This document shows positions 16,053 to 23,681 of a stretch of DNA of 64,000 nucleotides, one piece after another (within the stretch, counting starts at the first letter, position 1; the number at the start of each line of letters is the position of its first letter). The stretch is from Actinomycetaceae bacterium (lineage in GTDB: Bacteria > Actinomycetota > Actinomycetes > Actinomycetales > Actinomycetaceae). A model generated the notes under the pieces. The model saw only the letters and a list, made by a program, of their open reading frames with translations, was not told the DNA's origin and ran no database searches. Where the stretch lies: positions 62,001-126,000 of the forward strand of contig JAUMUM010000001.1 in NCBI GenBank assembly GCA_030530685.1, written 5' to 3'. A program made the translations under genes and the position numbers.

Positions 16053-17807
16053 TCAGCGAAGCGCTCGGTTGACGGCCGAGACGATCGCGTCGAAGCTGGC
16101 CCGCATCGTCGAGGAGTCAATGCCGCAGCCCCACAGGACCTGGCCGCCCACGTTGCATTCGACATAGGCGGCCGCCATGGCGTCGCCACCGGAGGACAGC
16201 GCATGCTCCGAGTAGTCGAGGACACCCACGTCCACGCCGATTTCGCGCAGGGCCGCCACGAAGGCGTCGATCGGGCCGTTGCCCGTCGTCTCCACCTCGT
16301 GATGCGCGCTGCCCTCCTCGACGATCACCTTGAGCGTGGTGTGCTCGGCGTCGCCCGCCGTCACCGTGGCGGACGACAGGCGGTACCGGCCCCACGGCTT
16401 GAGGCCGTCGGCCGTCGTATAGGGCAGGTACTCGTCGGCGAAGATCGCCCACAGCTGCTCCGAGGTGACCTCGCCACCCGTGAGGTCCGTGTGCCGCTGG
16501 ATGATCTTCGACAGCTCGATCTGCATGCGCCGCGGCAGGTCGAGGTTGCGCGTCGTCGACAGGAGGTAGGAGACGCCACCCTTGCCGGACTGCGAATTGA
16601 CGCGGACGACGGCCTCGTAGGACCGCCCCACATCCTTCGGGTCGATCGGCAGGTAGGGAACCTCCCAGGCGACAGCGTTCTCGTCTCCTCCGGCGGCCGC
16701 CACCTGGGCGGCCCTGTCCTCGAAGCCCTTCTTGATGGCGTCCTGGTGGGAGCCGGAGAACGATGTGTAGACGAGATCGCCACCGTAGGGCGTGCGCGGC
16801 GGAACCTCCATCTGCGTGCAGTGCTCGACGATCCGGCGCACCTCGTCGATGTCCGTGAGCACCAGCTCGGGGTCGATGCCCTGGCTGAACAGGTTGAGCG
16901 CCACCGTGATGAGATCGACGTTGCCCGTGCGCTCGCCGTGGCTGAAAAGGCAGCCTTCGACCCTGTCGACGCCGGCCAGCATGGCCAGCTCCGTCGTGGC
17001 CACGCCCGTGCCGCGGTCGTTGTGGTTGTGGGCCGACAGGGCGATGTACTCGCGCCTGGACAGGTTGCGGCTCATGTACTCGATCTGGTCGGCGTACACG
17101 TTGGGCGTGCAGCGCTCGACGGTCGTCGGCAGATTGAGAATGATTTCCCTATCAGGGCCCGGCTGCCATACGTCCATGACGGCCTCGCAGACCTCGAGCG
17201 CGAAGTCGAGCTCGGTGTCCACGAAGATCTCGGGTGAGTACTCGAATCCCGCGACAGTGCCCTCGTCCAGAGTCTTCTCCATGTACGCGACGATCTCCTG
17301 GGTCCCGGACACGGCCAGCTGCTTCGTGGCCTCGCGATCGTTGTGGAAGACGACACGGCGGAAGACCGGCGAGGTCGCGTTGTACAGGTGGACGGTGGCC
17401 CGGGGCAGGCCCTGCAGCGCGTCGACCGTCCTATGGATGATCTCCGGGCGCGACTGGGTCAGCACGGAAATGGTCACGTCCTCGGGGACCAGGTCCTCCT
17501 CGACGAGCGAGCGGCAGAATTCCAGGTCCGCGTTCGAGGCCGCAGGGAAGCCGATCTCGATCTCCTTGAGCCCGAGCTTGAGCAGCAGCTCGAACATCTG
17601 ACGCTTGCGGGCGGGGTCCATGGGCTCGATCAGGGACTGGTTGCCATCGCGCAGGTCGGTCGACAGCCAGCGCGGCGCCCTCGTCAGGCGCTTGTCCGGC
17701 CACTGCCTATCGGGCAGCACCACGGGGTTGACGTCCAGGAAGTGACGGTACTTGGAAATGGGCATGCCCGACGAGGTCTGACGATTGATGAATCCTTGGG
17801 TTTGCAC
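16053..17807 (-). CDS. leuA: 2-Isopropylmalate synthase
   Basis: 584-residue first enzyme of leucine synthesis, condensing acetyl-CoA with 2-ketoisovalerate. Seen: the HMGL-type barrel opening WLSTDLRDGNQSL with the metal-binding Asp, the metal-site HNHNDRG, and a C-terminal LeuA dimer domain that carries leucine feedback control. It is the long actinobacterial type (leuA2-like in length). The GTG at 17807 was chosen because CAGGAG lies six bases before it; ATG 15 codons in (MPISKYRHF) is an alternative. A leucine leader peptide and terminator lie just upstream, so transcription is probably attenuated when charged Leu-tRNA is plentiful. Confidence 0.95.
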   Translation of the reverse strand: MQTQGFINRQTSSGMPISKYRHFLDVNPVVLPDRQWPDKRLTRAPRWLSTDLRDGNQSLIEPMDPARKRQMFELLLKLGLKEIEIGFPAASNADLEFCRSLVEEDLVPEDVTISVLTQSRPEIIHRTVDALQGLPRATVHLYNATSPVFRRVVFHNDREATKQLAVSGTQEIVAYMEKTLDEGTVAGFEYSPEIFVDTELDFALEVCEAVMDVWQPGPDREIILNLPTTVERCTPNVYADQIEYMSRNLSRREYIALSAHNHNDRGTGVATTELAMLAGVDRVEGCLFSHGERTGNVDLITVALNLFSQGIDPELVLTDIDEVRRIVEHCTQMEVPPRTPYGGDLVYTSFSGSHQDAIKKGFEDRAAQVAAAGGDENAVAWEVPYLPIDPKDVGRSYEAVVRVNSQSGKGGVSYLLSTTRNLDLPRRMQIELSKIIQRHTDLTGGEVTSEQLWAIFADEYLPYTTADGLKPWGRYRLSSATVTAGDAEHTTLKVIVEEGSAHHEVETTGNGPIDAFVAALREIGVDVGVLDYSEHALSSGGDAMAAAYVECNVGGQVLWGCGIDSSTMRASFDAIVSAVNRALR

Positions 17808-17842
17808 GGTTTTCTCCTGTGTGGAAACGGGTGACCGGCCAT

Positions 17843-17863
17843 GAAAAATCCCCGCGGCGGGGA
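17843..17863 (-). terminator. leuA attenuator terminator
   Basis: Six-bp stem TCCCCG/CGGGGA with a 3-base loop, followed directly by five U residues (17844-17848): a textbook intrinsic terminator 36 bases before the leuA start. The stretch CGACGGGG inside the leader ORF can pair with CCCCGCCG of this stem at 7 of 8 positions, which gives a competing antiterminator. Confidence 0.75.
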
Positions 17864-17869
17864 GCCGAT

Positions 17870-17914
17870 CTAGCAAACCCCGTCGCGGCACATAAGCAGC
17901 ATGAGCCTGAACAT
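17870..17914 (-). CDS. leuL: leuA leader peptide
   Basis: Short ORF of 14 codons plus TAG, reading MFRLMLLMCRDGVC. It has three leucine codons (CTC, CTG, CTT) in the first seven and ends seven bases before the attenuator stem. Stalling at the Leu codons when leucine is short would free the downstream CGACGGGG to block the terminator. The first ATG could also be at 17923 or 17902, all in the same frame. TACCAT lies seven bases before 17914 and no ribosome binding site is present, so the leader mRNA may begin at its own start codon. Confidence 0.65.
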   Translation of the reverse strand: MFRLMLLMCRDGVC

Positions 17915-18056: not shown

Positions 18057-19757
18057 TCAGTGAGGAATCTCCAAATCCGTGGGCTGCTGGCCGGCCGCCA
18101 ACTGCACGCTCTGCAGAGCGCGCCCCAGCTCGGCGGCACTGGCGTGACGATCGGCCGGATCGTGGGCCATGCCCTTGCGCAGGACGTCGACGAGCAGCTC
18201 GAAGCCCGCGTCGTCGGAGGGCCCATCGGAGCCCGGCAGGGTGGGCACGTCGCTGGCCAGAACGCGCTCGATGTACTCGCGGCGCGTGAACTGCTCGTCG
18301 CTCGCGTAGGGTGCCCTCCCGGCGACGGCCGTGTAAACGGTGGCCGCCAGGGAGTAGACGTCGGCGGCCTGCCCGGAGGGGCGGTTGGCCAGCACCTCCG
18401 GGGCGGCCCACGGCAGCGAGGCACCAACGACGTCCTGGTTCGAGGCATTCAGCAGGGTCGCGATGCCGAAATCGCCCAGGACGGGGCGCCCGAACTCCGA
18501 GTAGAGCACGTTTGCGGGCTTGAGGTCGTAGTGGAGGATGCCCATGACGTGGGCCGTGTGCACCGCACCGGCCACCTGGATGCCCATGCGCAGTGCCTCG
18601 GCGACGGGCAGCGGCCCGTTGGCCAGGCGTTCGGCCAGCGAAGGCATCGGGCAGTACTGCATGACGACGTACGGCTGGCCGGAGTCGGAGACGTTGGCGT
18701 CGTGGATCGTCACCACCGAGGGGTGGCTCGAAAGCTGGGCCATGAGGTCGACCTCGTCGCGGAACTGCGAGACTGCCCCGGCGCCCTTGGCGGCCTTGGA
18801 CAGGACCTTGATGGCCACGAGGCGCTTGGGAAGCTGCTCCTCGTAGAGGTAGACGTCGGAAAAGCCGCCCGAGCCGAGGTAGGAGATGAAGTGGAAGTCG
18901 TCGAGCTTGGGCGGGGCGAAATGCGAGCGTCGAGGAGCCGACGTACGCGAGGCGTAGTCGATGCCGAGGGCCTGCAGCCCGTGGGAGCCCGGCACCTGGC
19001 TGTCGGGAATGTCCGGGCCGTCGTCGACGTCGATCTCGGCCATGAGGGTCGGGGGCGAGGCCAGGGAGTTGGCCGTCCGTTCGCTCAGGACATCGACGAC
19101 GATGGCGGCTTGCGCGGACGAGGCCACCCTGCTCGACCGGGCGATAATCGTCGAGGCAGCCCGCTCGGCTCGCTTGAACTCGTGGAGCCCCGACATCAGA
19201 TTCTCGCGGACGGCCTGGGTGGCGATGATGAAGCGCTGCCCCACCTCCATGGGAACCTTCCACAGGTTGCCGGGAATGTCGTAACCGATATCGTCGGCCT
19301 GCGGCAGAAGCGACAGCTCCCCCTCGTCAGAGGCCGACACGATCTCCATGCCACCCGAGGCCAGGGCTATCCACGCGGCCTCGTCTTCAACCCTGGCCGC
19401 GACCAGGCCGGCGATCCTCATGTCTTCGACGGAGTCGAGCGGGCTGGAGCGCAGGATGGTCGCCTCGGCGACGCGCCGGGAGATGCCTCGGGTGATGTCA
19501 CGCCACAGGTTGCGCACGTGCTCGATCCGCGGGCCCGAAGGATGCGCCGCCTGAAGCGCGGCGAAGGCGTCAATGACCATCCAGGAGACCTCCCGGGAAA
19601 GCGGCACGTCGATCCGCGGGTCGGTCACGAGGAATACGGGCATCTGGGCGACGAAGCCCTCGTTCGTGGCGGCGGCGTCACCGGACGCAGCGCTGCCCCA
19701 GCGGACGACCGCATCCCCCCAGGCTCTCGAATTGGCCGAGGCATCCATGCGTGCCAC
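18057..19757 (-). CDS. Ser/Thr kinase fused to a degenerate PP2C-like domain
   Basis: 566-residue cytosolic protein in two halves. Residues 285-545 are a Hanks-type kinase: G-loop GSGGFSDV, VAIK Lys317, HYDLKPAN (409-416; the usual HRD Arg is Tyr), DFG 429-431 and APE near 453. It should phosphorylate Ser/Thr. Residues about 28-225 line up by eye with the neighbouring PP2C phosphatase (TNEGFVAQMPVFLVTD for RNED...IAVADGMGG; MRIAGLVAARVEDEAAWIALASGG for the HIGDSR strand; VGQRFIIATQAVRENL for GDVVLVCSDGLSDQL), but every metal-binding Asp site is altered. I infer a pseudophosphatase domain. No membrane segment or PASTA repeats are present. It is last in a PP2C-FHA-kinase operon, two bases after the FHA gene. 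Confidence 0.85.
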   Translation of the reverse strand: MARMDASANSRAWGDAVVRWGSAASGDAAATNEGFVAQMPVFLVTDPRIDVPLSREVSWMVIDAFAALQAAHPSGPRIEHVRNLWRDITRGISRRVAEATILRSSPLDSVEDMRIAGLVAARVEDEAAWIALASGGMEIVSASDEGELSLLPQADDIGYDIPGNLWKVPMEVGQRFIIATQAVRENLMSGLHEFKRAERAASTIIARSSRVASSAQAAIVVDVLSERTANSLASPPTLMAEIDVDDGPDIPDSQVPGSHGLQALGIDYASRTSAPRRSHFAPPKLDDFHFISYLGSGGFSDVYLYEEQLPKRLVAIKVLSKAAKGAGAVSQFRDEVDLMAQLSSHPSVVTIHDANVSDSGQPYVVMQYCPMPSLAERLANGPLPVAEALRMGIQVAGAVHTAHVMGILHYDLKPANVLYSEFGRPVLGDFGIATLLNASNQDVVGASLPWAAPEVLANRPSGQAADVYSLAATVYTAVAGRAPYASDEQFTRREYIERVLASDVPTLPGSDGPSDDAGFELLVDVLRKGMAHDPADRHASAAELGRALQSVQLAAGQQPTDLEIPH

Positions 19758-19759
19758 CC

Positions 19760-20470
19760 CTAGCTGGGATCGTCGTACGAGGCGGGATCGGCCAGGCGAT
19801 AGAGCATATCCGAGGTGACGAGTCGGGTCGCCACGGCATGCTCGACCAGGCGCGCCCTCCGGTTGACGGCCAGCTTCTCCGGGCCGCCGTGAAGGCCCCG
19901 CACACCGTAGCGCGTCAGGCGCTCGCAGACGTGGTCGAGTTTCCTATTGAAGCGGGTGATGGGCCACCCGAGGCGGTCGGCGGCGTTCTGGGACGACGGG
20001 ATCGAGGATGTCGTCCCCCGCCCCGTGAGGACCGGCTCGGACAGGGCCAGCACGAGCAGCAGCTGGGAGTTTGTCAGCTCGACGGGGCCGATGGTCGTCT
20101 CCCCCGACTCGGTTGTCTCCGAGACAGCCGACGGCAGGTAGGACGGCTGGTCGTTGACCAGGCGCATTTCGTAGGTCGTCCGCCCGGCCGTGAATAGGAG
20201 CGTCGTGTCGGCGTACACGAGGGGTAGGCGCGCACCGGGCTGGAGGTAGGCCTGCGTGACGCCGGCGGCGTCCGCCAGGGTGGCTGGCAGCCTGGCACCG
20301 ATGTTCTCAATCCACCACATGTCGTCGACGTGGGAGATGACGAGAAAACGCCGGTGCAGGTACTGGTTGTCGTCGAGTTCCAACGGTCCCTCGCGTCCAA
20401 TCAGAAAAGGCTCGCCCGGGTCGATGTGAAACCATTCTCCACAGAACTCGAGTGAAAGGCTCATCCTCAT
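19760..20470 (-). CDS. FHA-like protein with C-terminal winged-helix-like region
   Basis: 236-residue protein. The first 105 residues resemble a forkhead-associated domain: FLIGREGPLEL (Gly-Arg of the phosphothreonine loop at residues 25-26), then YLHRRFLVISHVDDMWWIENIG. The usual Ser of the SxxH motif is missing, so phosphopeptide binding is uncertain. The C-terminal part (LGWPITRFNRKLDHVCERL...RGLHGGPEKLAVNRRARLVEHAV) looks like a winged helix and may contact DNA or the kinase. It overlaps the PP2C stop as ATGA and is followed after two bases by the kinase. A likely job is to link kinase/phosphatase state to a partner, but this is inference. Confidence 0.7.
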   Translation of the reverse strand: MRMSLSLEFCGEWFHIDPGEPFLIGREGPLELDDNQYLHRRFLVISHVDDMWWIENIGARLPATLADAAGVTQAYLQPGARLPLVYADTTLLFTAGRTTYEMRLVNDQPSYLPSAVSETTESGETTIGPVELTNSQLLLVLALSEPVLTGRGTTSSIPSSQNAADRLGWPITRFNRKLDHVCERLTRYGVRGLHGGPEKLAVNRRARLVEHAVATRLVTSDMLYRLADPASYDDPS

Positions 20471-21225
20471 TCCCCTATCTTCATGAGTGCCACGGTGACG
20501 TTATCGCGTCCACCGTTGGTCAGTGCCACGTCACGCAGTGCAAAAGCGAGCGCATCAAGGCTGTCCTCCTGCGCCACTTCCACGATAACCGAAGCGATGG
20601 TCTTGTCGTCCAATTGGTCCGAAAGTCCGTCCGAACACACGAGCACGACGTCACCTTCTTCCGCTTCGAAGCTCGACGTGTCGACCGTGCAGGCACCGTA
20701 GGAGCCGATCGCCCGGGTGATGACGGAACGGCGCGGGTGGCAGCGCGCCTCCTCTTCCGTGATGTCGCCCTCGTCAATGAGTTCCTGGACAACGGAGTGA
20801 TCCTTCGTGATGCGCCGCAGCCGTTCATTGCGCCACAGGTAGACTCGGGAGTCGCCGATATGGAACGTGAGCCATTCGGATTCGTCCGAGCAGTAGATGA
20901 CGCCCGCCAGGGTCGTGCCCGCACCCGGTTGGGCGTTGACGCGAGTCTCCGTCGTTCCCTCTTCCACCTCCTCGACGAAGGAGACGATCGCCGATCGAGC
21001 CTCGTCGATGCTCCCCTGCAGCGAGGAGACCATGCTGGCCCGGTCAACGTCTTCCCAGGTGACCTTGGTGAGCGTGTCGATGACCGCTTGCGCCGCCCTG
21101 TCCCCGACGAAGTGCCCTCCCATGCCATCGGCGACGGCGATCATGGGCGGGTGAAGAAGGTATCGATCTTCGTTGCGGAACCGAATTCTTCCCGGATCGG
21201 TCACGCCCGCCACAGAAACTCGCAT
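20467..21225 (-). CDS. PP2C-family protein phosphatase
   Basis: 252-residue PPM-type Ser/Thr phosphatase. All metal-binding signatures are intact: RNED (Asp20), ADGMGGH (Asp33, Gly34), HIGDSRVYLW, CSDGLSDQL and GGRDNVTVAL. It lacks a membrane segment, unlike the PstP of cell-wall operons. It is first of the PP2C-FHA-kinase operon and presumably removes phosphates placed by the kinase at 18057-19757. The start at 21225 was chosen because a promoter with correct spacing ends six bases before it; an ATG at 21255 would add ten residues. Confidence 0.93.
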   Translation of the reverse strand: MRVSVAGVTDPGRIRFRNEDRYLLHPPMIAVADGMGGHFVGDRAAQAVIDTLTKVTWEDVDRASMVSSLQGSIDEARSAIVSFVEEVEEGTTETRVNAQPGAGTTLAGVIYCSDESEWLTFHIGDSRVYLWRNERLRRITKDHSVVQELIDEGDITEEEARCHPRRSVITRAIGSYGACTVDTSSFEAEEGDVVLVCSDGLSDQLDDKTIASVIVEVAQEDSLDALAFALRDVALTNGGRDNVTVALMKIGE

Positions 21226-21231
21226 GGTGTA

Positions 21232-21260
21232 AGAATACGGCAGCGGCCCCTTCATGCCAG
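21232..21260 (-). promoter_or_regulatory. Promoter of the PP2C-FHA-kinase operon
   Basis: -35 CTGGCA (21255-21260), 17-base spacer, -10 TATTCT (21232-21237), then six bases and the PP2C ATG. Each hexamer matches consensus at four positions. No ribosome binding site follows, so the operon mRNA is probably leaderless. Confidence 0.55.
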
Positions 21261-21264
21261 TGGC

Positions 21265-22797
21265 CTAGCGAAGAGAGGGGTACAATCCCCAATAGCCCAG
21301 CGAGAGGAAGAGCACGACCTGCCCCGTCGTGGCCGAGAGAATCGTCAGACGTGCCGGCCACGAAAAGCGCCCGGGCGTGCGCCACAGCGCGAATTGCGCG
21401 CGCACGAACAGCCACGCGGCCAGCAGGGCAACGAACTGGCAGGCCAACCACCCCGACTGCACGACGAAACTATTTCGCTGGTAGGAGGTGGCGTAGTAGG
21501 CCAGAAGGATGATGTAGGCGGTGAATGCGCAGCAGCCCGCGACGATTCCGAGGGAGGCGGCGTTGAGCGACGGGGCGCACCCGCGCAGATCGACGAGTCT
21601 GCGGCCGCGAATGCGCAGGCGGCCGAGCAGCGAGGCGAGCGCGGCGGCGCACACGAGCAGGGCCCCGGCCGCCAGGGTCACGAGCAGCGACATGCCCGAG
21701 GCGAACGCGGGCGCCGAAGCCACCGTCTCGGCCATGTAGGGCTGTGAGGGATTGGCGCCGGCGATGTGCGGCTCGGCGTGCGCCGTCGACGGCATGCCAT
21801 TGACCCAGTCGGACACGTCCTGCATCGGTTGCCTGAGGAGGTCATCGCCGATCTTCAACCCGTGGTCGGCGCCCTCGTAGTAGCGGACCGTGAAGGCCGA
21901 GTTCGACGCCTGCCTCAGGTCGTCGCGCAGGAGGAGCGGCCCCTGGATCACGGGCATCGACATGTCGTTCGTCCCGTAGACCATGAGGACGGGCATCGTC
22001 ATTTCCTGCTGGTATTCGGAGACGTCGAAGTCGATGTACTCGAAGGAGCCGTCATCGAAACGCTGGCCGACGAGCTTGGCGATGAGGTTGGTGATCTGCT
22101 TTGGCGCGCCGAGGTTGCGCAGGTACGTGTCGGCGGCCAGCGCCCCCTGCGTGCGGATCGGCAGCACAGGTGCCGAAACGAAGACGACGAAGGCGACCCT
22201 GCTGTCGCCGGCGGCCACGATGGGGCCGACATAGCACCCTTCCGACACCGTGTAGAGCCCCGTGAGCTTGGGGTCCACGCCGTCGATGCCGACGAGGAAG
22301 TCGAACGCGTCCTCGTAGTCCTTGGCGAGCTCCAGGTAGTCGCGGTGGGTGGTCGTGTAGTTATTCGTGCGCTTATCGGTGACGAGCGTGGCGACGCCGG
22401 TGGAGGCGATGAGGTCGGTCTCGTCTTCGAAGGACGTGTGGGAATCGGTTCCCGTTCCGTGGACGAACACCATCGCCGGGGCCAGCCCATCGAGCCCGAC
22501 CGGGGTCTTGAGGGTGGCGTGAACGGTGGTTCCGTCGCGCATGGGCACCTCGACCTGCCGGACCTCGACCTCGTACGTGCCCAGCGAGGCGGTCGGATTC
22601 GCGCCCTCAATCCGCGTGCTCTGGCTTTCCGGCACGAGCAGCGTGCGCATCGGCTGCGGGTCCCAGCCCGGCCCGGCCCAAGTGCCCCATATGCCCAGCA
22701 GGAGGATCATGGCGATGCACGAGACGAGGCGCGGGTGACGCAGGGAGAGCCGCCTTCCCGCGCGTCGGCCTTCCGAGCTGGAGTGGTCGGCCGACAT
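21265..22797 (-). CDS. Membrane-anchored alpha/beta hydrolase
   Basis: 510-residue protein. An N-terminal membrane anchor (VSCIAMILLLGIWGTW, about residues 27-42) precedes an alpha/beta hydrolase domain: oxyanion-side VFVHGTGTD, nucleophile elbow YTVSEGCY (first Gly of GxSxG replaced by Thr), Asp in YGTNDMSMP and His in EGADHGLK. The last 140 residues hold about four membrane segments separated by short loops. This is unlike secreted esterases, where the domain is simply tethered. The substrate is unknown. The ATG at 22797 overlaps the era stop (TGATG), so it is translated with era; the upstream in-frame extension is era coding DNA. Confidence 0.8.
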   Translation of the reverse strand: MSADHSSSEGRRAGRRLSLRHPRLVSCIAMILLLGIWGTWAGPGWDPQPMRTLLVPESQSTRIEGANPTASLGTYEVEVRQVEVPMRDGTTVHATLKTPVGLDGLAPAMVFVHGTGTDSHTSFEDETDLIASTGVATLVTDKRTNNYTTTHRDYLELAKDYEDAFDFLVGIDGVDPKLTGLYTVSEGCYVGPIVAAGDSRVAFVVFVSAPVLPIRTQGALAADTYLRNLGAPKQITNLIAKLVGQRFDDGSFEYIDFDVSEYQQEMTMPVLMVYGTNDMSMPVIQGPLLLRDDLRQASNSAFTVRYYEGADHGLKIGDDLLRQPMQDVSDWVNGMPSTAHAEPHIAGANPSQPYMAETVASAPAFASGMSLLVTLAAGALLVCAAALASLLGRLRIRGRRLVDLRGCAPSLNAASLGIVAGCCAFTAYIILLAYYATSYQRNSFVVQSGWLACQFVALLAAWLFVRAQFALWRTPGRFSWPARLTILSATTGQVVLFLSLGYWGLYPSLR

Positions 22798-23681
22798 CAG
22801 AAACCGAGCCGCCCCATTTTCTTCGGGTCGCGCTGCCACTGCTTGGTGACCTTGACGTGGAGGTTGAGGTCGACGCGCTGGCCGAGGAGCCGCTCGATGC
22901 TCCTGCGCGAGCGCCTGCGTATGCGCGCCAACTGAGAGCCGCGGTGGCCGATGATGATCCCCTTCTGGGAGTCGCGTTCGACGTGGAGGTTTGCGTGGAT
23001 CGTCGGCCCGTCGATCTCCTCGATCGTGATGGCAAGTGAATGCGGCAGTTCGTCGCGCAGATCTTCGAGGGCCGCCTCCCTGATGAGCTCGGCGATGAGG
23101 GTTTCCTCGGATTCGTCGGTGATGGCATCGCGCGGATAGAGCGGCGGGCTTTCGGGCATGCGGGCCACGAGGAGCCGCGAGAGGAGGCCGATGCCCTCGC
23201 CCTCGGTGGCGCTGACGGGCACGATCTCCTCGAAGTCGGCGAGCTTCGAGACGGCGAGCAGGTGGGACGCCAGGCGCGGGCGGCCGACCAGGTCGCACTT
23301 CGTGACCGCCGCGATAAGCTTGGCGCGGCCGGAGGCGAGGTCGAGGAGGAACCTGTCGCCGGGACCGATGTCGTCATTGGCGGGCAGGCACATGACGACG
23401 ACGTCGACGTCCGACAGCGAGTCGCGGACCATGTCGTTGAGGCGCTCGCCCAGCAGGGTGCGCGGCCGGTGCAGTCCCGGCGTGTCAACGAGCACGACCT
23501 GACCGTCGTCCGCGTTGACGATGGCGCGGATGACGCGCCTGGTCGTCTCCGGGCGACTCGAGGTGATGGCCACCTTGTGCCCGACCAGGGCATTGGTCAG
23601 CGTCGACTTGCCCGTGTTGGGGCGGCCGGCGATACAGGCGAATCCGGCCCTGAAGCCCTCGGGCCACCCGCCATCAATCAT
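22797..23681 (-). CDS. era: GTPase Era
   Basis: 294-residue Ras-like GTPase that binds the 3' end of 16S rRNA and helps assemble the 30S subunit. G1 GRPNTGKST, G3 DTPG and G4 TKCD are present, followed by a C-terminal KH domain with IIIGHRGSQLARI. It begins MIDGGWPEGFRAGFACIAG at 23681, overlapping the upstream stop by eight bases. The order ybeY-CBS protein-era is the usual actinobacterial one. Confidence 0.96.
   Translation of the reverse strand: MIDGGWPEGFRAGFACIAGRPNTGKSTLTNALVGHKVAITSSRPETTRRVIRAIVNADDGQVVLVDTPGLHRPRTLLGERLNDMVRDSLSDVDVVVMCLPANDDIGPGDRFLLDLASGRAKLIAAVTKCDLVGRPRLASHLLAVSKLADFEEIVPVSATEGEGIGLLSRLLVARMPESPPLYPRDAITDESEETLIAELIREAALEDLRDELPHSLAITIEEIDGPTIHANLHVERDSQKGIIIGHRGSQLARIRRRSRRSIERLLGQRVDLNLHVKVTKQWQRDPKKMGRLGF

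Follow-up and report, generated by a model that had tools for sequence, protein, structure and literature searches.

The PP2C, FHA-like and kinase genes

The stretch of DNA analyzed here (the window, 64,000 nucleotides from the 2.4-Mb genome of an Actinomycetaceae bacterium) contains three genes on the minus strand, at positions 18057-21255, that encode, in this order, a PP2C protein phosphatase (P0003), an FHA-like protein (P0002) and a serine/threonine kinase (P0001). The N-terminal domain (NTD) of the kinase is almost certainly itself a PP2C domain, one that is predicted to have lost its catalytic activity. The array had been noticed in a preliminary description made from the sequence, and the open reading frames of the window confirm its coordinates and the tight packing of its genes, which are as follows.

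20467..21255, minus strand: P0003, active-type PP2C phosphatase, 262 amino acids (PF13672, 4.1e-12; NCBIfam Stp1, 2.6e-59; ligand table; trees and hidden Markov model (HMM) scores)
19760..20470, minus strand: P0002, FHA-like protein, 236 amino acids (homologues across the order; FhaB hint; alignment; start context)
18057..19757, minus strand: P0001, the whole fusion of a predicted pseudo-PP2C domain, a linker and a Ser/Thr kinase, 566 amino acids from GTG 19757
19083..19721, minus strand: predicted pseudo-PP2C domain (NTD), P0001 residues ~13-225 (phmmer, hhalign, ligand table, AlphaFold model, Foldseek, HMM scores)
18909..19082, minus strand: P0001 linker, residues ~226-283 (alignments; pLDDT below 50)
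18090..18908, minus strand: P0001 kinase domain, residues ~284-556 (PF00069, 5.2e-40)

The stop of the PP2C gene overlaps the start of the FHA-like gene by 4 nt, and 2 nt separate the FHA-like gene from the GTG of the kinase gene. Because the starts and stops overlap or nearly touch, the three genes likely form a tight operon with a single transcript, as judged by spacing only. The GTG of the kinase gene is situated within the apparent ribosome-binding site (TAGGGGTGGCACGCATG) of a second candidate start, an ATG three codons further on. This ATG, at 19748, is preceded at a distance of 8-9 nt by an AGGGG Shine-Dalgarno sequence, and several orthologues start there, with MDxS..W N-termini. The Shine-Dalgarno position and the orthologous N-termini make ATG 19748 the more likely start, which would yield a protein of 563 amino acids. 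The start context of P0002 points to the ATG at 20464 as its likely start.

The N-terminal domain of P0001 has a PP2C fold

Pfam and NCBIfam detect solely the kinase in P0001; the NTD has no significant match in either database, nor does any NTD homologue in Pfam. Kinases of this kind are therefore probably annotated with an unknown N-terminus. When residues 1-270 of P0001 were used as a phmmer query against all open reading frames of the fetched loci, the orthologous fusions were retrieved first, followed solely by PP2C proteins, from E 2.6e-6 to E 0.003 and collinear over the domain. An hhalign comparison of nine NTDs with 44 PP2Cs of related gene clusters (see below) yielded a probability of 99.2 and an E value of 3.2e-19 over 206 columns, the main gap in the alignment removing the KDHS/flap stretch. 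PP2Cs also lead the matches of the NTD profile among PDB sequences, the best being tPphA at E 0.026. An AlphaFold model of the NTD, built from the nine-sequence alignment (pLDDT 77, pTM 0.76), retrieved in Foldseek the PDB PP2Cs PppA (1.9e-7), tPphA and PstP; the 48 PDB matches with E<0.001 were judged by their descriptions to be of the PPM type. The TM-scores, calculated by query length, are moderate (about 0.4-0.57), as would suit a degenerate domain that has a disordered tail. When the full-length model of P0001 was used instead, the best 50 Foldseek matches were kinases only, a result that says nothing on the NTD.

It was concluded from sequence and model that residues ~13-225 are, with hardly any doubt, a pseudo-PP2C (PPM) domain. 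The preliminary description had interpreted the kinase N-terminus as a PP2C-derived domain devoid of its metal ligands and joined to an active kinase, and had called for a fold search, an unrelated fold or a different known domain in homologues being what would speak against it. The phmmer, hhalign, PDB-profile and Foldseek results agree on the PP2C assignment, the structural model matches PPM-type structures, and no NTD homologue has a significant Pfam match. A different known domain was rejected as an identification of the NTD, given the lack of significant Pfam and NCBIfam matches and the PPM-type character of the Foldseek matches with E<0.001.

Loss of the active site

In the 44 cluster PP2Cs the aspartates of the NED, ADGMGG, SDG and RDN motifs and the arginine of GDSR are conserved, with one gap row at SDG and RDN. 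P0003 likewise has every metal ligand intact. Among the nine sequences of the NTD family the sole conserved metal ligand is the ADG aspartate, which forms part of an Asp-Pro pair invariant in 9/9 (D46-P47 in P0001) and corresponds to D43 of P0003, the bridging aspartate of ADGMGG. The NED, SDG and RDN aspartates and the phosphate-binding GDSR arginine are lost in P0001. The NED position is occupied by T31-N32-E33 or N32-E33-G34, neither of which contains an aspartate, and the position of the SDG aspartate varies between Q, G, E, K, D and R among the NTD members. The profile alignment sets RDN against S213-S214-A215 and not against AQA, as had been proposed. The earlier claim that all metal-ligand positions are changed is accurate for the NED, SDG and RDN aspartates but not for the ADG aspartate, retained as D46. 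Since the metal-binding aspartates other than D46 are lost, a two-metal centre would not be expected by established PP2C chemistry. With its fold kept, its catalytic residues lost and its sequence constrained, the NTD is, as judged from sequence and model, a PPM-type pseudophosphatase and is predicted to be inactive.

Distribution and constraint of the fusion

The preliminary description had suggested a search for the same fusion in related genomes, and this search was productive: it revealed the fusion in 10 species, which belong to five genera of a single family. When the NTD profile was run against 213 genomes of the family, ten genomes scored 297-407 bits and the next matches at most 47 bits; the top matches below this gap for which the loci were examined are PP2Cs. 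A sample of 395 genomes at class level revealed no further fusion, although more divergent kinase fusions could escape this search; outside the window genome the matches reached at most 35 bits, and those that were read are PP2Cs.

The NTD is present at full length in all ten fusions, with 24 invariant columns and an identity of 26-59% to the window sequence. In the close pair L021/L022 the non-synonymous rate (dN) is 0.013 vs a synonymous rate (dS) of 0.25, a dN/dS of about 0.05. For the window sequence and that of locus L019 the NTD values are 0.31 vs 0.85, a dN/dS of about 0.37, with the kinase half at 0.28; pairs further apart approach saturation. By these sequence comparisons the NTD is under purifying selection and does not drift freely. 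In the assembly of G079, the fused kinase (L021, 7895-7988) is frameshifted just after DFGIATLV, by either a real mutation or an assembly error, and that of its close relative L022 is intact.

Canonical clusters and the kinase half

In most of the loci read around homologues of the FHA-like protein, the genes follow a canonical order: PP2C, a scaffold gene, a kinase with a transmembrane segment, and an FHA-like gene. The canonical scaffold gene encodes an N-terminal domain of its own and a C-terminal FHA domain. In one version of the canonical cluster, cluster A, the genes adjoin Era and the hydrolase that is also present in the window (e.g. L028, L030, L144, L145, L150), and the Era-hydrolase-PP2C synteny is common to fused and canonical loci. 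The fused version has lost the scaffold gene and has the FHA-like gene ahead of the kinase gene, and its kinase terminates immediately after the catalytic domain. The window genome has a second cluster, L051 (G000:C9), which is canonical, with the order transglutaminase, PP2C, scaffold, membrane kinase, FHA-like. Two genes flank the fused operon of the window:

21265..23298, minus strand: alpha/beta-hydrolase-like gene, upstream context; the listed open reading frame extends 5' of the real start (synteny)
16053..17891, minus strand: leuA-type gene, downstream context (synteny)

According to the synteny table, the former is kept beside both the fused and the canonical four-gene clusters and the latter beside the fused cluster.

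The N-terminal scaffold domain is conserved over about 140 residues (L028, 6253-6687, and about 20 other loci) and hhalign reveals no relationship of it to PP2C or the NTD. Derivation of the NTD from this domain was rejected, at an hhalign probability of 0.1. The hydrolase/leuA-linked cluster has been dismantled in various ways in L052 (G101), L059 (G284) and L141-L143 (G105, G102, G110), the states being PP2C and FHA-like genes without a kinase, an FHA-like gene alone, and a PP2C gene alone.

The kinase domain of P0001 is of the active Ser/Thr type as far as its catalytic residues indicate. K317, E335, D411, N416 and D429, i.e. the VAIK lysine, the helix-C glutamate, the HxD aspartate, the asparagine and the DFG aspartate, are invariant in the nine fused kinases. 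The HRD motif, present in 38/38 canonical kinases, is replaced by HYD or HHD in 9/9 fused kinases (HYD in P0001). A hydrophobic membrane-type segment follows the kinase domain in 38/38 canonical and in 0/9 fused kinases, in which the maximal 19-residue mean is at most 1.45. The fused kinases also lack the C-terminal region of their relatives and end after the kinase domain. P0001 scores 143 bits against the NCBIfam PknB_PASTA model, vs a cut-off of 450, and so does not belong to the PknB/Stk1 PASTA membrane type. By their sequences the fused kinases are soluble and non-RD (RD, arginine-aspartate). The RD arginine couples activation-loop phosphorylation to kinase activity. The lineage has therefore probably dropped both activation-loop control and the membrane sensor. 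In the kinase tree the fused clade is well supported and its sister group is not. The linker between the domains is mostly predicted to be disordered, with T237, E241 and L264-G265 invariant; T237, an invariant threonine in a disordered stretch, is a candidate autophosphorylation site. Assignment to a defence system (MADS, PD-T4-6) was rejected, as the PADLOC matches of P0001 cover only the kinase domain and the neighbours are Era, the hydrolase and leuA.

Origin of the N-terminal domain

An HMM of the NTD scores cluster-A PP2Cs at 48-68 bits (mean 59), and the remaining cluster PP2Cs average 36 bits; the corresponding values for P0003-type PP2Cs are a mean of 3.8 and a maximum of 11.5 bits, and for PstP a mean of 4 and a maximum of 10.8 bits. 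The hhalign probability is 99.4 for the NTD vs cluster-A PP2Cs and 19 for the NTD vs P0003-type PP2Cs, and the reverse comparison agrees. In a control with the generic Stp1 model, PstP ranked first and P0003 was about level with cluster A, which argues that the NTD ranking is not a mere effect of conservation. The tree groups the NTD with cluster-A PP2Cs (SH-aLRT 99) and P0003-type PP2Cs with PstP (97), with long branches involved. Profiles and tree concur that P0003 belongs to a PP2C lineage different from that of the source of the NTD. The NTD thus probably descends from a cluster PP2C rather than from P0003. Given the scores of about 59 vs about 4 bits, it was probably the original cluster phosphatase that was converted, with another PP2C now serving the operon. 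In this course of events, the original phosphatase would have been joined to the kinase and ceased to be catalytic, whereas its fold and probably some of its binding surfaces would have been preserved, and a PP2C of a different lineage would have taken its place in the operon.

Proposed function and alternative explanations

P0001 is best explained, with a probability of roughly 0.6, as a soluble non-RD kinase that carries a pseudophosphatase regulatory or docking domain in place of its former membrane sensor; its architecture is supported by sequence and model, from which we infer the role. That the NTD plays a cis-regulatory or docking role for the kinase is slightly favoured. It would act in cis, either by holding and releasing the kinase domain or by bringing the kinase to the partners of the old phosphatase, in a manner like that of TAB1 on TAK1 or of the pseudo-PP2C domain of RssB as an adaptor. 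The neighbouring PP2C, P0003, would reverse the phosphorylation, and the FHA-like protein would be a probable partner or reader. As the same lineage has probably abandoned RD-type activation-loop control, the kinase is likely to be controlled through the NTD. The joint appearance of the non-RD motif, the missing membrane segment and the fusion suggests that the pseudophosphatase took over control, although alone it proves nothing. More specifically, and tentatively, the cluster phosphatase may have turned into a cis-regulator of the kinase that it once opposed, replacing the membrane sensor, with RD control abandoned and dephosphorylation left to the other PP2C. If so, this conversion would provide a bacterial counterpart of TAB1-TAK1 in which the partners are covalently linked.

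Several observations weigh against this explanation. One event may lie behind the fusion, the non-RD motif and the missing membrane segment, so that their association counts as a single evolutionary observation. The full-length model of P0001 has a pLDDT of 70 and its domain interface is not trustworthy. Sequence evolution is faster in the NTD than in the kinase (identity to L019 of 59% and 76%, respectively), which would be compatible with a weaker role, and in the relative G101 (L052) the PP2C and FHA-like genes are kept with no fused kinase at the locus. Finally, the approximately unbiased (AU) test does not reject a clade of the NTD with P0003-type PP2Cs (p 0.119). This last result, together with the adjacency of the genes, can be cited for an origin of the NTD as a recent duplicate of P0003 that was fused and then decayed, an ancestry under which the same function would be possible. 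It is improbable in view of the profile scores, which for P0003-type PP2Cs are at background (3.8 bits, probability 19, vs 59 and 99.4 for cluster A), and of the occurrence of the fusion in five genera.

As to function, the NTD might serve for docking or as a decoy, binding the phosphoprotein substrates of the ancestral phosphatase and thereby steering the kinase or shielding them from the PP2C, with kinase activity unaltered. Descent from the cluster phosphatase would carry over its partner specificity, and pseudophosphatases have been described as regulators and scaffolds (PMC8622459, PMC13358185). However, the flap/KDHS stretch, which has been tied to the substrate choice of PP2Cs (PMC13358185), is largely deleted and the phosphate-binding arginine is lost, which leaves this explanation rather unlikely. 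That the NTD is less conserved than any other part of the fusion and that one relative is devoid of the entire fused gene at this locus would also be expected if the NTD were a tolerated fossil of the fusion without function, but a decaying remnant would hardly persist at full length in ten fusions of five genera with invariant positions and a dN/dS well below 1, and is accordingly very unlikely. Least credible is a residual enzyme, in which a metal site rearranged around D46 would make P0001 a bifunctional kinase/phosphatase. D46 is invariant, and other bacteria have PP2C-kinase fusions for which bifunctionality has been suggested (PMC1262709, PMC12088040), but only one carboxylate ligand position is conserved, the glycine next to it has become a proline and the SDG aspartate is variable.

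Comparison with known systems

Kinases preceded by an N-terminal PP2C domain were described in Pseudomonas and Deinococcus in 2005 (PMC1262709), and kinase domains in PP2C proteins, mainly of Pseudomonadota, in 2025 (PMC12088040); in both reports the PP2C domains are treated as phosphatases. The Pseudomonas/Deinococcus fusion (gi|9947763; PMC1262709) resembles P0001 in its N-terminal PP2C-like domain and C-terminal Ser/Thr kinase. By its description it is set apart, as its domain was recognized as PP2C, with 35% identity to Stp1 (PMC1262709). In contrast, the domain of P0001 has lost its active site and is unmatched in Pfam, and the protein is actinobacterial, its operon containing a further gene for an active-type PP2C. 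Since the PP2C-kinase architecture had already been reported for Pseudomonas, the novelty lies in the pseudophosphatase version and its origin. This refines the preliminary description, which did not know the fusion as a characterized system. A literature search, outside of which most subscription papers lay, found no account of a bacterial kinase that is fused to a pseudo-PP2C, and the combination appears to be new.

Pseudo-PP2C domains occur in RssB (PMC12143880) and in TAB1 and PHLPP (PMC13358185). The C-terminal pseudo-PPM domain of E. coli RssB (PMC12143880) is, like the NTD, a bacterial PPM domain that has lost catalysis and serves in cis as a regulatory or adaptor module; it differs in being joined to a response-receiver domain and not to a kinase, with nothing to suggest that the two fusions share an ancestor. 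Human TAB1 is a PP2C-fold pseudoenzyme dedicated to a kinase, TAK1, but acts in trans and is eukaryotic, so that the likeness is one of analogy only. The bifidobacterial PFNA operon (pkb2, fn3, aaa-atp, duf58, tgm, prpC, fha; PMC8430577) is an actinobacterial cluster of membrane kinase, PP2C, FHA and transglutaminase genes that resembles L051; it differs in that no pseudophosphatase fusion has been described and Pkb2 has a transmembrane segment and an extracellular region (PMC8430577). The canonical clusters of Actinomycetales (L028, L051 and others) have a homologous kinase and FHA-like protein and, in L028-type loci, a shared Era/hydrolase neighbourhood. They are distinguished by an RD kinase with a transmembrane segment and C-terminal region, a separate gene for the FHA-domain scaffold and an active PP2C of another lineage.

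Pseudoenzymes have mostly been studied in eukaryotes, and bacterial cases with a traceable ancestor are few. In the present case, related genomes contain the converted form alongside the canonical kinase and the likely active ancestor, a cluster-A PP2C, so that the fusion can be compared side by side with the loss of catalysis and the altered kinase control.

The FHA-like protein and candidate FHA ligands

Homologues of the FHA-like protein were found in 131 of 297 genomes of the order, and P0002 is the most conserved member of the operon (91% identity to L019). In the FHA-like tree the proteins of the fused operons group with that of L052 (support 1.0) and are joined to the cluster A version (0.954). 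The designation FHA-like, taken from the preliminary description, is weakly supported: 2/14 homologues match the NCBIfam FhaB model at E 0.006, but none of the 14 matches Pfam FHA, and hhalign gives a probability of 0.2 for the family vs the scaffold FHA domain. This actinobacterial family is highly conserved and is covered by no Pfam or NCBIfam model; it consists of an N-terminal half with GR...LHR...NxGSR and a conserved C-terminal half with RLGW..TRFNRKLDNVC..RRARLVE.

In most canonical kinases (L028, 7932-9461; L051, 6615-8222; L063, L066, L081 and others) the kinase domain is followed by an acidic stretch and then by T-R-V-R-like motifs such as DDDRTRVRA and GLTRVRGVVSIDP. The C-termini of several cluster PP2Cs form DDTxP or TTLP-like tails. 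These motifs and tails are, by their sequences, candidate phospho-threonine ligands of the cluster FHA domain. The post-kinase motif is missing from the fused form, as is the scaffold FHA gene.

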